From contig NZ_QMEA01000086.1 in NCBI RefSeq assembly GCF_012912105.1, forward strand, positions 1-40,115: a stretch of DNA of 40,115 nt. Reading direction: 5' to 3'. The notes beneath the pieces are model-generated. The model was not told the origin of the DNA, did not search any database, and saw only the letters and a list, made by a program, of their open reading frames with translations. Position numbers and translations under genes: made by a program. Of this stretch, positions 3,809 to 9,688 are shown piece by piece (within the stretch, counting starts at the first letter, position 1; each line of letters starts with the position of its first letter). Source of the DNA: Brasilonema sp. UFV-L1. GTDB taxonomy: Bacteria > Cyanobacteriota > Cyanobacteriia > Cyanobacteriales > Nostocaceae.

Positions 3809-4993
3809 ATGGTAAAAATTCCGGCTTCAAAAGAAGGGATAGAAAAAATTAATCAGTGTAGAGAAGACAAGCGATGGACTAAAGATGAAAATAGCGAAGC
3901 TATGATTATCACAAGTCAGCAGCAATTCAGACAAGCAGTAGCAGGAGAAAAAAAACTGCCGATAGAAGACTTCACCATTGAACAGCTTGAATCTTTGGTA
4001 AAAAAGAAAATTTTTACTCCTGACTCAACCAATCAAGTTTGGGAGTATATTAATAGATTAAAAAGTAAGAATACTTTACGCATTACTATTGAGCGGTTTT
4101 TGCAAGTCATTGAATCAAAAGAAATTCATACTAAAGGAATTACATATAGAAACTGGCAAAAGTTTCTGCAAGGGAAAGAAATTGAGCAGGATGTTTTTAT
4201 AGCTTTCTGCGAAGCATTGGGAATAGAAGATTGGAAGAGTGTTGCTGTTCTTCCTCTCATCTATACCAAAGATAGTACTAAACAAACTCGTTTAGTTGAA
4301 GGCTTAAGCTTATTCAATCATCAACGACAAATTGATTTACTCCTGAGTAACTTAGCGAACCAAAAAAGAGCTTTTTTAATTGCTAATCCATGTCATTACA
4401 GTCGAACTTGGATGCTGAAGCGATTAGAGACAGAGATTTCTGTCACTATGTGTCTGAAATGCAAACCGATTTCTCTAACGGGTTCGCAGTACTCCTCATT
4501 GAGAATTGGAGAATTAAAAAATCGCTTTCACACAGAATATTGTCAAGCAAAACTTGTTAAGACTTTGAAGCAAGAAAATCTGCTTTTTATTCTTGATATT
4601 GACACTTATGATTTAGAACGCTTAGAACAATTGATAATAGAATTTTGGCAGCCTTTGGTTAGCCAAGTTCCAAAAAATGCTGGTATGTTATTGATGTTTT
4701 TATTAGCTAGTCATTGCAACAATGATTGGCAAGAAAAATGGCACAAAAGTTCTACCTTGTCTGAACACATTACTGAACTGCCTCCAGCTAATCCCTTTGA
4801 AGCAAACGATGTGGCTCAGGTACTACCAAGAATTGCGCTAAAACTTGGACAGCAATTGTTAGGACAGGAAGTAACAATTGCTAATTGCCTAATCAACAAA
4901 AGTCAAGGCGAAACAGAAAAGTTACTTCTAGAAATTTATCGGTACTTTGAGTGTAGGACAACAGAATTTTCCCTATGGCAAAGATATCCTTAG
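3809..4993 (+). CDS. STAND-like conflict protein without P-loop (iSTAND-type)
   Basis: A 394-aa protein with two parts. Residues about 32-150 are helical and include an HTH-like segment (TYRNWQKFLQGKEIEQ..FCEALGIEDW) common in cyanobacterial conflict proteins. Residues about 165-390 resemble a STAND-type NTPase core (LSLFNHQRQIDLLLSNL, LLFILDIDTYDLERLEQLI, an NPFEANDVAQVL winged region), but where a Walker A should be (AFLIANPCHYSRTW) there is no GK[ST]. That fits the 'inactive STAND' partners described beside MoxR-vWA systems. It overlaps the MoxR gene by 19 bp, so translation is probably coupled. ATG 3809 opens the frame; ATG 3902 is an alternative. Assignment is by architecture and context. 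Confidence 0.6.
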   Translation: MVKIPASKEGIEKINQCREDKRWTKDENSEAMIITSQQQFRQAVAGEKKLPIEDFTIEQLESLVKKKIFTPDSTNQVWEYINRLKSKNTLRITIERFLQVIESKEIHTKGITYRNWQKFLQGKEIEQDVFIAFCEALGIEDWKSVAVLPLIYTKDSTKQTRLVEGLSLFNHQRQIDLLLSNLANQKRAFLIANPCHYSRTWMLKRLETEISVTMCLKCKPISLTGSQYSSLRIGELKNRFHTEYCQAKLVKTLKQENLLFILDIDTYDLERLEQLIIEFWQPLVSQVPKNAGMLLMFLLASHCNNDWQEKWHKSSTLSEHITELPPANPFEANDVAQVLPRIALKLGQQLLGQEVTIANCLINKSQGETEKLLLEIYRYFECRTTEFSLWQRYP

Positions 4994-5946
4994 AATATAC
5001 CGGAGAAGTTCAACCTCCCGTCGGAGAGTGGAATGAGCATGTACTGCGTAAACTGTATCCTTACTATCCCGATGATTCTCTCAAAGAAGCAGTGAATTTA
5101 GCAATCCGCTTGAATCGTCCATTGCTGCTGGAAGGAGAACCAGGTAGCGGAAAAAGTGAGCTTGCTCGTGCTGTTTTCTATGAATTTAGTAGTCAGAAAA
5201 AATCTGATTTTGAGTGGCGTTATCGCCTTTGGAACGTGCAGTCAACTAGCAAAGCTCAAGATGGATTTTACAGCTATGACTACATCGGAAGACTACAAGC
5301 TGCACAACTAGAAAAAGTGGGAATTGAGAACGATGAAACTGACCCTGCAAATCCCGAAAAGTTTCTCGAATATGGACCACTCGGCTATGCTTTTGAGGAA
5401 AAAACTATTGATAAAAAAGACGGTGAGAAAAAAGACTGTAGAACTATAGTTTTGATTGACGAAATTGATAAAGCGGATACAGACTTTCCTAATGACCTCT
5501 TACTGGCTTTAGAAGACCAATGTTTTGAAATCAAAGATGTGCGTCCTCGGCGCTGGTTAAAAGCGAATTCCGATGCACCACCAATTGTTTTCATTACCTC
5601 TAATCAAGAAAAAGACCTTCCCAGTGCATTTTTGCGTCGTTGCCTGTATCATTACATTGAGTTTCCTAAACGCGAACAACTTATCAAAATTATTAAAGCA
5701 AGATTTGAGTCATCACCAGATAAAGTTGTGAAAGCTGCTATTGACCGCTTTTTGGAATTACGCTCAGAAATGGAGGATGAAAAAGAAGAAACCGCAAAAA
5801 AAATTAGCACTAGTGAGTTAATCGATTGGTTTACAATCTTAAACGACTATCCCCCAGAGGAGGTTTTTAAAAAACTTAAAGAAGGACTTCCCTTTGCCAG
5901 CACTCTGCTCAAAAGTCGCCAAGATAAGAGCGAATATGGTTTTTAG
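4975..5946 (+). CDS. MoxR-type AAA+ ATPase of conflict operon
   Basis: AAA+ ATPase of the MoxR group, which typically act as chaperones remodelling vWA-domain partners. Motifs: Walker A GEPGSGKS (about residue 54), Walker B IVLIDEIDKAD (about 160), sensor-1 region VFITSNQEKDLP (about 207) and the arginine-finger segment FLRRC just after. All key residues look intact, unlike its neighbours. It starts inside the end of the upstream gene (19-bp overlap) and is followed after 11 bp by the vWA-FGE gene, forming a tight operon. The partner is therefore most likely the downstream vWA protein. Length (323 aa) is normal for the family. Confidence 0.88.
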   Translation: MAKISLEYTGEVQPPVGEWNEHVLRKLYPYYPDDSLKEAVNLAIRLNRPLLLEGEPGSGKSELARAVFYEFSSQKKSDFEWRYRLWNVQSTSKAQDGFYSYDYIGRLQAAQLEKVGIENDETDPANPEKFLEYGPLGYAFEEKTIDKKDGEKKDCRTIVLIDEIDKADTDFPNDLLLALEDQCFEIKDVRPRRWLKANSDAPPIVFITSNQEKDLPSAFLRRCLYHYIEFPKREQLIKIIKARFESSPDKVVKAAIDRFLELRSEMEDEKEETAKKISTSELIDWFTILNDYPPEEVFKKLKEGLPFASTLLKSRQDKSEYGF

Positions 5947-5957
5947 GTAGCAAGATC

Positions 5958-8903
5958 ATGAGTCAACCCCCACTGCTAGATTTATTTTTGCGGCTACGAG
6001 AAGCTGGTTTGCCCTTGAGCATTGACCAGTATCATTTAGCAGTAGAGGCATTATTGCAGTCAATTGAAGCAGGATTAGACATTGCTGACCAAAAAGCAGT
6101 GGCGCGGCTATGTCGAACAATCTGGGTGAAATCTAAACAACAACAGCATTTGTTTGACCAGTGCTGGGAAGAAATCATATCCCAAAGTGCAGCAATACGC
6201 AGCAAATCTTCCACTATCGAGTTAATACTTCAACAACAGCAAGCCCCATCAAACTCAAGTTTACCTGATGAGATTAATTCAGATAGCGAGAGTCAGAAAC
6301 CTGAGAATCAGCAACCAGAAGAAGTTGTCACTTCCGTATCATCTTTACCTGATGAGATTAATTCAGATAGCGAGAGTGAGAAACCTGAGAATCAGCAACC
6401 AGAAGAAGAGGAATTCTTACAAGATGAATTCTTAGAAGGAGAAGAAGAGGAATCTTTAGTCCCGACTCCCAGTGACATTGCAGTTGTCACTTCCGTCTCC
6501 ACAGCACTGAAAGAAAAAAATTATTTCCCGATTCGCCGTGAACAACTACGACAAAGTTGGCGGCTTTTGGCTCAAAAATTACCAAGTAGTATTCCTAGTC
6601 AGTTAGATATCCGCGCAACAGTTACAGATGTCGCTAAACGGGGCTTTTTTTTCAAACCTGTTTTCACTCCAGCTCAAGTTAAGTGTAGAGAAGTCGTCCT
6701 GCTGATTGACAACAAAGGCTCAATGGTTCCTTTTCATCCCTTGTGTCGTCAATTTGTGGAAACTTGGAAAGGAGCGAAAATTTACTACTTCCACAATAGC
6801 CCTACCGAAGAACTTTATCATGACTCACAATGTTGGCAAGGAGAATCTGTCAAATCTATCTTGGCACGTTTCTCGAAAGAACACACCCTAGTTGTCATTG
6901 TCAGCGACGCTGGAGCTGCACGTCGCCGTACTGTACCTTCAAGGTGGGAAGAAACTGTTGACTTTCTGGCAATGCTGACACCTCAAGTCTACAGGGTGGC
7001 GTGGCTCAATCCCCTTCCGCGCTTTCACTGGGTAGAGACCACTGCTGAAGAAATCGCTAAGATAGATTCATTAGTCCCAATGTTTGCCTTAGAACCTGTT
7101 GAATATCAACAAATGCTGCAATGGTTACTTTATGGCAAACCGAGTGTGAGAAGTTTCTTGAGACAGGCAAACGAAAAAGCAAAGAAAGCGTGGAAAAATA
7201 ATCAAGTTAATAGTTTTGAATTTTGGGATTTAGGATTTGATGCTGTTGGCAAAGTAGAAGCTTTCGATAGACAGTTTGGAAAAGCTCATTTGCATTTGGC
7301 TTATCATGCGGCTTTTCCTCTCGTTTTAACACCAGATTTGCTTTATTGCTTGTGGTGGAAATTTTTTAAAGAACCTGCTAGTGTTTCACCACAGGAACTT
7401 CGCCTGGTACAGAAACCCGGTTTCTCAAAGAAACCGGGTTTCTCAGAGAGAGTTCAATCTGCAAAGTTGTTTTGGCAGAACTTTTTTAAAGAACCTACTA
7501 GACAACCTGCGAGAGAAACTGCAAATGTACCTTGGTATGCTGTTCCTGATTTGCTGCTATCAAATTTGTGTCAGCAGGTCGATTCTGAATTATATGAAAT
7601 GGAGCGTGAAGTTCGCAATGAACTGCTAAAACGTTGTCAACAGCACTTCGGAGAAAAGCGGCTTCAAGAACTCTCCAAATTTCTGATTTCGTACATCAAA
7701 CGCCAAGTCACCGAACAAAAACTAAACTCATGGCAGTCTGATTTGCTGCAAGCCCAGCAATGGACAGCTTTAGCATACACCAAAAAGCGAGACGAAGCTG
7801 CCCGAGAACTCGCAGATGAACTACGTCAAGCTTATCTGCAAAATAACAAAGCTGAATTGGTGCGCTTATCTGAGGTGATTGAAACTTTGGCAGAACCTTT
7901 AGCAGAAAAATATGAACCTTTACTGGTGGTTGCGCGGGGTTATGCTGCTTTCGCACGTGGCGATGAAAGAGGAGCCGCAGATGCTCAAGATGAATTGGAA
8001 CAGCTGTTAGGCTTTGGAGAGACTATTAATATAGAAGGAGTCACGCTAAAACGACCAGGTAAACTCCGCCTGCAACAGTTTTCCTTCGAGGTTGTCACCG
8101 TTAACCGTCGCGGCGAAATCATCAAACGAGAAACCAAACAAGCAAGATATTTCACTGAAGATTTAGGCGAAGGTATTACTCTAGAAATGGTCGCAATCCC
8201 TAGTGGAAAATTTATGATGGGTTCACCAGAACCAGAAGGATATGACAGCGAAAAACCTCAGCATGAAGTTACCGTTCAATCCTTCTTCATGGGTAAGTAC
8301 CCAATTACTCAAGCACAATGGCGAACAGTAGCCGCATTACCCAGAATTGAACGTGACCTTCAGCCAAACCCATCTTATTTTAAAGGTGATGACCGTCCTG
8401 TAGAACGTGTTTCTTGGTATGATGTTATCGAATTCTGTGGTAGACTTTCTAGAAGAACAGAGCGCGAATATCGATTACCCTCAGAAGCGGAGTGGGAATA
8501 CGCTTGTCGCGCTGGAACAACAACACCGTTTCACTTTGGTGAGACAATTACAGATAAATTAGCAAATTACAATGCCAGCGTAAGATTTGCTGACGAACCT
8601 CAAGGAAAGTATCAACGGAAAACCACAACAGTAGGAACTTTTTCTCCCAACGCCTTTGGTCTGTACGATATGCATGGGTTAGTCTGGGAGTGGTGTGCTG
8701 ATAATTGGCATGCAACTTACCAGGAAGCGCCAAAAGATGCAGGAGTATGGATTAGTAATGATAATAATTATCGGCTGCTGCGGGGTGGGTCGTGGGTCGA
8801 CGGTCTTGGGCTTTGCCGTTCTGCCAGCCGCTACTGGGGCAAGCCCAAGACCGACGTTTTCGGTTTTCGGGTAGTGTGTGGTGCGGCGGCGAAGACTACG
8901 TAG
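5958..8903 (+). CDS. vWA-FGE fusion, candidate DGR-diversified conflict sensor
   Basis: A 981-aa protein. Residues 1-90 are helical (LRLREAGLPLSIDQYHLA); about 95-175 is an acidic linker with a duplicated 28-residue unit; about 240-390 is a vWA domain whose metal site is degenerate (D251-N-K-G-S255 instead of DxSxS, D317 kept); about 400-720 is helical; about 736-975 is an FGE/SUMF1 domain with C-type lectin fold (MVAIPSGKFMMGS, YRLPSEAEWEYACRAGTT, GLYDMHGLVWEWC, RGGSW, GFRVV). Of the two FGE catalytic cysteines, the second is present (C953) and the first is Asp (D948), so enzymatic activity is unlikely. The C-terminal 40 residues have unusual diversity and high GC, as in DGR targets. It follows MoxR by 11 bp; the MoxR ATPase probably acts on the vWA domain while the variable domain binds a ligand. 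Confidence 0.85.
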   Translation: MSQPPLLDLFLRLREAGLPLSIDQYHLAVEALLQSIEAGLDIADQKAVARLCRTIWVKSKQQQHLFDQCWEEIISQSAAIRSKSSTIELILQQQQAPSNSSLPDEINSDSESQKPENQQPEEVVTSVSSLPDEINSDSESEKPENQQPEEEEFLQDEFLEGEEEESLVPTPSDIAVVTSVSTALKEKNYFPIRREQLRQSWRLLAQKLPSSIPSQLDIRATVTDVAKRGFFFKPVFTPAQVKCREVVLLIDNKGSMVPFHPLCRQFVETWKGAKIYYFHNSPTEELYHDSQCWQGESVKSILARFSKEHTLVVIVSDAGAARRRTVPSRWEETVDFLAMLTPQVYRVAWLNPLPRFHWVETTAEEIAKIDSLVPMFALEPVEYQQMLQWLLYGKPSVRSFLRQANEKAKKAWKNNQVNSFEFWDLGFDAVGKVEAFDRQFGKAHLHLAYHAAFPLVLTPDLLYCLWWKFFKEPASVSPQELRLVQKPGFSKKPGFSERVQSAKLFWQNFFKEPTRQPARETANVPWYAVPDLLLSNLCQQVDSELYEMEREVRNELLKRCQQHFGEKRLQELSKFLISYIKRQVTEQKLNSWQSDLLQAQQWTALAYTKKRDEAARELADELRQAYLQNNKAELVRLSEVIETLAEPLAEKYEPLLVVARGYAAFARGDERGAADAQDELEQLLGFGETINIEGVTLKRPGKLRLQQFSFEVVTVNRRGEIIKRETKQARYFTEDLGEGITLEMVAIPSGKFMMGSPEPEGYDSEKPQHEVTVQSFFMGKYPITQAQWRTVAALPRIERDLQPNPSYFKGDDRPVERVSWYDVIEFCGRLSRRTEREYRLPSEAEWEYACRAGTTTPFHFGETITDKLANYNASVRFADEPQGKYQRKTTTVGTFSPNAFGLYDMHGLVWEWCADNWHATYQEAPKDAGVWISNDNNYRLLRGGSWVDGLGLCRSASRYWGKPKTDVFGFRVVCGAAAKTT
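6258..6425 (+). repeat. 84-bp in-frame tandem duplication in acidic linker
   Basis: Two tandem copies, 84 bp each, encode SLPDEINSDSES.KPENQQPEE. The second copy differs by few bases. The phrase VVTSVS at the unit end recurs once more near 6483. Period is a multiple of three, so only linker length changes. Confidence 0.9.
7362..7501 (+). repeat. In-frame 120-bp duplication carrying a palindromic repeat
   Basis: A 20-bp sequence TTTTTTAAAGAACCTRCTAG occurs at 7362 and 7482, exactly 120 bp apart. Between them, 7411-7443 is a perfect inverted repeat with 15-bp arms (AGAAACCCGGTTTCT, 3-nt loop). A related hairpin lies at about 32090-32117. The whole insertion is translated in frame (KPGFSKKPGFSE), adding about 40 residues to the conflict protein. 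Confidence 0.85.
8781..8903 (+). other. Putative DGR variable region (VR)
   Basis: The last about 120 bp of the gene encode RGGSW, then V-D-G-L-G-L, the invariant CRSA, S, R, then Y-W-G-K-P-K-T-D-V-F, then the invariant GFRVVCGAA. In many relatives the positions between fixed residues are Asn-rich, the codons (AAY) that DGR adenine mutagenesis randomises. Here they are diverse and keep mostly C/T/G third bases; only 9 of 66 bases at 8796-8861 are A in an otherwise A-rich gene, and GC content rises sharply. The stretch ends at the stop codon as in typical VRs, with GC-rich GGTGCGGCGGCGAAGAC as possible IMH-like end. No template copy is found in this window. Confidence 0.6.
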
Positions 8904-9101: not shown

Positions 9102-9251
9102 ATATCAGGTTCGGTTGATTACTTATCATTCCTGAAGAACCCCACCCCGCCAAAGCTACGCTTAGGCTCCCCTCCCCTTGCCAAGGGGAGGGGATAAAGG
9201 GGTGGGGTGCAGTCAACGTGGCAATCATAACTAATTAGCCGAACATGATAT
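9102..9251. mobile_element. MITE-like element, copy 2
   Basis: A 150-bp element with inverted ends: ATATCAGGTTCGGTTGATTA on the left and its imperfect complement TAATTAGCCGAACATGATAT on the right. The interior is a CCCCACCCC / GGGGTGGGG foldback. It shares end sequence and organisation with 3259-3386. Confidence 0.6.
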
Positions 9252-9259
9252 TACCCACT

Positions 9260-9555
9260 CATTCGGTGCAAAACCTCACCCTGCCCTATCGGGCATGCCT
9301 CTTTGCGAGTTCGGTGCAAAACCTCATACCAATTTGAAAAAAGAATGCGACAGATACACAGTCCCAAACCCTCGTTATCTTAGGCTTTCTTAATTTTGAA
9401 TTTTGAATTTTGAATTTTGAATTGGTATCACCCTGCCCTATCGAACATCCCTCTTTGCGAGTTCGGTGCAAAACCTCACCCTGCCCTATCGGGCATCCCT
9501 CTCCTTAGTAAGGAGAGGGAAAGATTTACCCGCAGGGTAAAGCGAGGGTGAGGTT
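9260..9555. repeat. Dispersed CACCCTGCCCTATCGGGCAT repeats
   Basis: Three partial direct copies around 9278, 9430 and 9477; the last extends into CTCTCCTTAGTAAGGAGAGGGAAAGATT and is repeated nearly identically at about 38527-38582. This marks a genome-wide repeat family. Confidence 0.75.
9392..9422. repeat. TTTTGAA heptamer tandem repeat
   Basis: About four consecutive copies of the 7-bp unit TTTTGAA. A two-copy version lies near 1346. Typical low-complexity repeat of filamentous cyanobacteria. Confidence 0.85.
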
Positions 9556-9688
9556 TTAAGCGAGATGTGTACACCACGGTAGTCTTTTCAAGGGGGCTAG
9601 GGAAGATCTAGCTTTATCTGAATCGTATTGCTCTATCGGGCGTTGTAACCCACATTTCGCAGGTGCGATCATAAGTTGCTTTCACAAA

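Follow-up and report, generated by a model that had tools for sequence, protein, structure and literature searches.

The stretch of DNA analysed here (the window; 40,115 nucleotides) is one whole contig (C322) of the genome assembly of Brasilonema sp. UFV-L1 (G000, the own genome). It carries an operon, the third gene of which encodes a protein with a vWA part and a C-terminal FGE domain. Judged by its sequence, the 3′ end of this vWA-FGE gene is in all likelihood a genuine variable region (VR) of a diversity-generating retroelement (DGR). We consider it likely that the present tip is an orphaned, probably frozen, receptor variant of this VR, the cognate template and reverse transcriptase (RT) of which are not in the assembly. 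The assembly is a draft of 8.3 Mb in 337 contigs, 99.53% complete by marker genes.

The variable tip of the vWA-FGE protein

The gene and the parts of its tip are as follows.
5958..8903, + strand: vWA-FGE protein, 981 residues, DGR target (Pfam FGE-sulfatase, E 1.9e-55, residues 743-973)
8778..8903, + strand: probable DGR variable region including the homing end and reaching the stop codon (mismatch with 21 templates biased towards A; drop in identity to the ortholog)
8796..8861, + strand: variable core of 66 bases (22 codons) with 9 A, GC 0.621 (base counts)
8862..8897, + strand: homing-site-like 3′ end of the VR, GGTTTTCGGGTAGTGTGTGGTGCGGCGGCGAAGACT (similar ends in the VRs of relatives)

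The protein (open reading frame 5958-8903) ends in RLLRGGSWVDGLGLCRSASRYWGKPKTDVFGFRVVCGAAAKTT, followed by the stop codon. It combines a C-type-lectin/FGE domain, a C-terminal VR and a homing-site-like end, the homing site being recognised by sequence likeness. Most of the VRs listed for the relatives have a similar end, ...GAGGACT, and the template ends read ...GAGCGCTC or similar. The initial annotation of this DNA had proposed that 8781-8903 is the DGR variable region of a conflict-system protein. This proposal is well supported by the A-biased distance from templates and by the bounded divergence from the ortholog, both presented below. Its base counts for the 66 bases that separate the Trp codon of RGGSW from GFRVV (8796-8861; 9 A, GC 0.621) are correct. 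The tip residues that it gave hold overall, apart from one Arg that sits between the S and YWG. Among proteins of known structure, the window protein matches variable protein 1 of Treponema denticola (TvpA, PDB 2y3c; E 3.6e-19), a DGR variable protein. By E-value, PvdO ranks first in the PDB (9.5e-34); it is no DGR protein.

A single sequence grammar of our own was used to collect 100 distinct elements, identical sequences being counted once. It separated 21 templates (TR; A-rich, with a tail motif behind) from 79 others, termed VR; this class holds all elements not called TR, some of which may not be DGR targets. Elements lacking the pattern were missed, for example the target on contig C360 of G003 and the template of G012. 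Comparing TR and VR of equal length (916 comparisons) gave 13 pairs that have no non-A mismatch at all and 11 to 21 changed A sites. Two of these pairs span contigs (G032) or genomes of one genus (G202 with G010). Because of these 13 pairs, the grammar can be said to pick out real DGR pairs. The VR of the window has no such partner; its best equal-length template shows 16/85 non-A mismatches.

The VR was also compared, by gapped alignment, with each of the 21 templates, which come from this and related genomes and none of which is cognate. The median share of mismatches is 0.71 for template A and 0.24 for all other positions. In the control, where templates were compared with one another (420 ordered pairs), the medians are 0.14 at A and 0.26 elsewhere. 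For the 78 other VRs against all templates, own and foreign mixed (1638 comparisons), they are 0.58 and 0.27. With every one of the 21 templates the mismatch of the window is higher at A than elsewhere (Fisher p 4.8e-3 to 7.2e-8), values to be taken as descriptive since the templates are related and the tests are thus not independent. At non-A sites the tip is therefore as far from the templates as the templates are from each other, and at A sites about five times further. The template nearest by non-A mismatch, on contig C182 of the congener G006, differs at 18/27 A and 13/88 non-A positions; over the first 51 nucleotides of the core, aligned without gaps, these figures are 14/19 and 4/32.

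Divergence from the ortholog is bounded at the tip. The ortholog lies on contig C257 of G006; it aligns in two pieces (residues 254-977), with 86% and 82% of the amino acids identical. In the stretch compared, it is identical to contig L106 of Scytonema sp. RU_4_4. From 6707 to 8670, DNA identity is 0.83-0.97 in windows of 90 columns. It falls at the tip, to 59/81 in the alignment window at 8760 and 53/84 in that at 8841, and is 30/30 just past the stop codon. The two tips differ in length, by 9 nucleotides in the core and 3 in the homing end; the homing-end sequences differ (VCGAAAKT against ACSAAWT), as does the linker about 40 nucleotides upstream. Thus, they are not two readings of one template, and what lies between them is a different template or recombination of the whole tip. 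The between-species comparison shows past diversification of the tip.

Template and reverse transcriptase in the assembly and in the relatives

A DGR clade is common in the relatives. Its RT-bearing cassette consists of a target, an RT with the motifs GLP[IV]GN[LT/LS]SQ and YVDD, a template and, behind the template, a conserved structured element of about 165 nucleotides, the template tail. Such cassettes were read in G006 C182 (L052), G010 C3 (L053) and C1 (L227) and G032 C66 (L054), as well as in Tolypothrix brevis (L111) and Iningainema (L118); G020 C40 (L229) likewise holds target, RT and template. The targets of L053, L054, L111 and L227 are frames of 976-993 residues with the same tip, thus of the size of the window protein, and stand beside the RT-bearing cassettes. 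The RT of the clade is present in 18 of 59 genomes, two of which (G012 and G034) have fragments only. No copy of it was found in any of G000 to G005, G001-G005 being of the same genus as the own genome. In G004 (3 contigs), VR-like tips are present and no tail RNA matches.

The window itself contains no template tail (covariance model, E <= 0.1) and no DGR RT (five such RTs as tblastn queries; lowest E 0.013, over 13 residues), as the initial annotation had stated. In the whole genome, BLAST of the VR finds, besides itself, only a 36-base match (89%) to its 5′ part, in the target gene of contig C166. The 3′ homing end finds just a 14-base match besides itself, and no second copy. The covariance model detects one template-tail RNA in the genome, on C166. 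The template there was considered as that of the window and rejected, because besides 19/25 A mismatches it shows 22/89 at non-A positions.

As for the RT, the own genome yields 23 RVT_1 matches, some of them fragments at contig ends. To the extent that they are readable, none belongs to the DGR type. All 23 loci were read: where readable, motif 4 is QGxxxSP, or QGSNASD in the 793-residue protein of C271. The SQ-type motif of all five reference DGR RTs occurs in no RT frame of the own genome. Three of the matches (C56, C84, C196), close to contig ends, cover the N-terminal part only and lack the YxDD motif. Identity of the own RVT_1 frames to the five DGR RTs is at most about 34%, compared with 63-84% between full-length clade members and the RT of G006, and no match to the DGR RT of the clade is found at E <= 1e-30. 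The RT of C144 was rejected as a DGR RT on account of its motif QGAVISP; it is presumably CRISPR-associated, since the next open reading frame looks like Cas1. The protein of C271 (L060 1243-3621), which has an RT domain with YVDD and a 792-residue counterpart with RVT_1 in G005, has the motif QGSNASD and only RVT_1 in Pfam; it was left unclassified. Family NF041746, tried as a DGR RT profile, was a wrong choice, as it corresponds to Drt2. The bAvd profile matched nowhere, controls included.

Outside the genome, 31 of 217 family genomes, the own included, have a match to the VR at E <= 1e-9, and the best foreign ones among the matches listed are 72-74% identical. In plasmid records there is one 72% relative, in Anabaena sp. 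90 (for the protein search of plasmid records, 20 of 73 records were listed). Phage records hold no match to the VR, and IMG/VR none to the exact 23-mer of the homing end.

The gene had further been described as a DGR target acting at a distance. The first half of this description stands; the second finds no support, there being no copy of the homing end, no fitting template and no DGR RT in the assembly. A genome search for a near-identical template copy beside a DGR RT, which had been suggested as a check, yielded neither (BLAST, tail model, RVT_1 and DGR-RT searches). By the annotation's own standard, this refutes present activity as far as the draft assembly reaches. The VR of the window looks like an orphan, its machinery either lost or not assembled.

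Template-target cassettes without a reverse transcriptase

Contig C166 of the own genome (L059 12283-12890) carries a second DGR target, with a VR in a frame of 729 residues, and a template with its tail 329 bases further. This VR differs from its template at 18/26 A and 0/89 non-A positions. In the 13.4 kb read, no RT is found between or beside the pair; the contig stops some 640 bases past the template, so an RT may locally lie beyond the contig end. In comparison with the congener G003, the coding sequence before the tip is identical at 1780/1888 positions (94%, summed over 19 windows), the VR window at 70/100, the spacer behind the VR at 179/197, and the template with tail at 296/300. The A-only differences of the pair together with this comparison indicate that a DGR worked recently in the lineage. 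Neither G000 nor G003 (89% complete) was seen to have a DGR RT. At the C166-type locus of G001, the template is gone and part of the tail remains.

Similar pairs occur in the relatives. On C1 of G015 (L309 5900-6250), template and target show 14/25 A and 1/90 non-A mismatches, with a tail match; this genome (4 contigs, 99% complete) gives no RVT_1 match at E <= 0.001 and no match of the RT of the clade. The pairs of L222 6636-7120 (G006 C190) and L205 (G093) have 0/89 non-A mismatches and no RT in the stretch read, the RT of G006 sitting on a contig other than C190. These RT-less cassettes, which lie outside the window, are what would surprise a specialist. Other VR-like tips were observed in the own genome. 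An FGE gene on C21 (L307 1523-2900) has its frame broken just before such a tip. Two more FGE proteins with VR-like tips, both on C286 (L308 2603-4159 and L245 1492-3393), show no matching template, and the homing end of L308 is of the type of the G006 ortholog (GFRVACSAA).

The tail RNA was recognised by alignment in the following four copies.
L052 4000-4165: template-tail RNA
L053 4780-4949: template-tail RNA
L054 7147-7316: template-tail RNA
L059 12730-12890: template-tail RNA

A covariance model built from four sequences finds the element in 29 of 59 genomes, some of the matches being weak. Across 44 distinct sequences, double-sided changes are seen for 40 of 46 pairs, and 92.3% of the cells pair. 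Scored for covariation, the alignment reaches 0.478, compared with 0.226 for shuffles and no more than 0.123 for slid controls, a result favoured by the fitting of this alignment to the covariance model. The C166 copy, the one scanned against Rfam, has no match at the gathering threshold. It is already known that a ribonucleoprotein includes the upstream and downstream parts of DGR template RNA (PMC12691664; here and below, published work is cited from the part of each article available to us), so that the principle of a tail RNA in such a particle is not new. A broad search of literature listings showed no description of this family, and the available part of PMC8144416 holds nothing on the tail RNA or on RT-less templates.

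A tree of the tails comprises 43 of 45 sequences, rows under 130 letters and repeated labels having been dropped, and its groupings are given without support values. An RT is in the stretch read for 26 of the 43 sequences, a fragment for 1 and none for 16. Some of these 16 are weak or degenerate, most stretches are of about 3 kb so that a distant RT is missed, and G006 and G008 have RTs elsewhere. The RT-less tails are scattered in the tree: those of C166, G003 and G006 C190 group with the RT-bearing G020, and a second group (G008, G012, G015) stands beside RT-bearing relatives.

Origin of the tip and known systems

How may the tip have arisen? An ancestral DGR RT would have copied an A-rich template RNA, with AAY codons and a structured tail, making errors at adenines. 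The complementary DNA would have replaced the last ~125 bp of the vWA-FGE gene, thereby randomising about a dozen codons of the tip, which has the C-type-lectin fold and where the varied residues would lie on the lectin face. The resulting ligand sensor, possibly an antigen sensor, would signal via its vWA part to the MoxR-like ATPase and the iSTAND protein, and its specificity would stay as it is until both an RT and a fitting template are regained.

Several observations weigh against an orphaned variant of this kind. The orphan status rests on a draft assembly, where loss of the machinery would have to be told from a gap. With the cognate template not in hand, A-specificity is deduced from those of other loci and genomes, and even the nearest of them has 13/88 non-A mismatches. 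Identity to the ortholog is only 0.38-0.60 in windows 5995-6621, so that the N-terminal third of the gene is not comparable; the low values upstream of 6707 are uninformative because the frame of the ortholog is shorter there. The differences in tip length and homing end make recombination between tips part of their history.

It is possible, if somewhat unlikely, that the DGR is intact and acts in trans, RT and cognate template being missing from the draft because of a gap, or because they sit on a plasmid or other mobile element that was not assembled. The C166 pair, with its A-only changes and its contig end so near the template, speaks for an RT at work recently in the lineage. Moreover, in Thiohalocapsa PB-PSB1, long reads gave variants with intact RT and template at a locus lacking both in the reference (PMC10907252). 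However, the assembly is 99.53% complete, none of its 23 RVT_1 places is of DGR type as far as readable, it has one tail RNA only, and the RT of the clade was not found in G001-G005 either; nor do phage records and IMG/VR contain a close copy of the VR, the plasmid records offering only the 72% relative. Another model would consider the RT-less cassettes as a maintained form of DGR in the family, served either by a visiting RT, carried on a mobile element, or by a cellular RT of non-DGR type, the VR of the window being a target of this intermittent, borrowed mutator. The conservation of template and tail between the own species and G003 (296/300, with ~94% in adjacent coding sequence) can be put forward for it, and we regard it as doubtful.

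Acquisition of a ready-made tip by recombination with another DGR-diversified FGE gene, homing not necessarily having occurred at this gene, would explain why length, homing end and linker differ from the ortholog. It is quite unlikely: the own assembly has no donor-like tip, the best foreign matches among those listed from the 217 family genomes reach 72-74%, and such a tip would still be of DGR origin. Finally, an ordinary FGE C-terminus that merely drifted would account for the absence of a template from the assembly, and FGE domains are common in the genus. Yet the A-specific mismatch pattern is unlike template-template divergence and the boundary at the stop is abrupt, which makes drift most improbable. 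An orphaned, probably frozen, variant of a genuine VR is the explanation that we retain as likely.

The gene stands in an operon with two others.
3809..4993, + strand: iSTAND protein, 394 residues, first gene of the operon (Pfam PF19995 iSTAND, E 1.3e-11, 45.6 bits, cut-off 24)
4975..5946, + strand: AAA ATPase, 323 residues, MoxR-like by context (Pfam AAA_5 E 6.2e-7, AAA E 8.1e-6); the gene overlaps the preceding iSTAND gene

The vWA part is assigned from VWA_CoxE at residues 295-369 (25.7 bits, 0.7 below the Pfam cut-off of 26.4). The name MoxR follows from the neighbourhood described in PMC7159879, with no MoxR profile behind the label. The operon thus has the composition of an iSTAND ternary conflict system (iSTAND, MoxR, vWA), two of the three labels, vWA and MoxR, leaning on context; operons of this kind are already known to be DGR-linked. 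PADLOC gives no match for the vWA-FGE and iSTAND proteins and four weak ones for the ATPase. Inside the vWA-FGE frame, 7335-7515 holds a short palindromic repeat (GAAACCGGGTTTCT) and only 60/180 columns align to the ortholog, which resembles an in-frame repeat insertion largely missing from the latter. The intergenic stretch 9120-9560 contains many short repeats, with tandem TTTTGAATT units and a C-rich sequence (cccctcccc...aaggggagggg); a similar C-rich stretch is found at the end of C166.

The window would present a sensor of a ternary conflict system whose tip was diversified by a DGR and then left without a mutator, as far as the assembly tells. This makes it possible to test whether, after a useful DGR variant has been found, it becomes fixed and the machinery is discarded. 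One genus offers both situations, with an RT-bearing species (G006) and six genomes, the own included, in which the RT of the clade was not found. In addition, the tail RNA gives a handle on DGR templates without an adjacent RT, which would be missed by a survey taking the RT as its starting point.

MoxR-vWA ternary conflict systems of multicellular bacteria hold DGR targets, and some of their loci lack RT or template (PMC10907252, PMC12691664). Action in trans has been described, and at some loci with varying targets the RT or the template has been lost (PMC10907252); in Nostoc punctiforme A-specific mutation occurs in targets beside a MoxR-vWA cluster (PMC12691664). The window resembles these systems by its vWA protein with a variable C-type-lectin tip beside a MoxR ATPase; unlike them, its third partner is iSTAND rather than VMAP, and the whole assembly yields no DGR RT. 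In the iSTAND ternary systems, for which defence against invaders is predicted, FGS/FGE is the commonest effector of the vWA component, about 22% (Kaur et al., 2020; PMC7159879). The window shares iSTAND, MoxR, vWA and FGE with them, whereas the available part of that article does not describe such a tip as an orphaned VR. Remote variable proteins are known in cyanobacteria, and all3226 of PCC 7120 has remnant TR-VR homology with no RT nearby (PMC7517822). As in these proteins, for which loss of diversification parts was proposed, the C-type-lectin tip of the window is far from any DGR RT. However, the remote targets counted there are tied to a DGR of the same genome, and the window has neither cognate template nor RT. 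With TvpA (PDB 2y3c), the window protein has in common an FGE-type C-type-lectin domain and a C-terminal VR, to which it adds a vWA part and the ternary operon.

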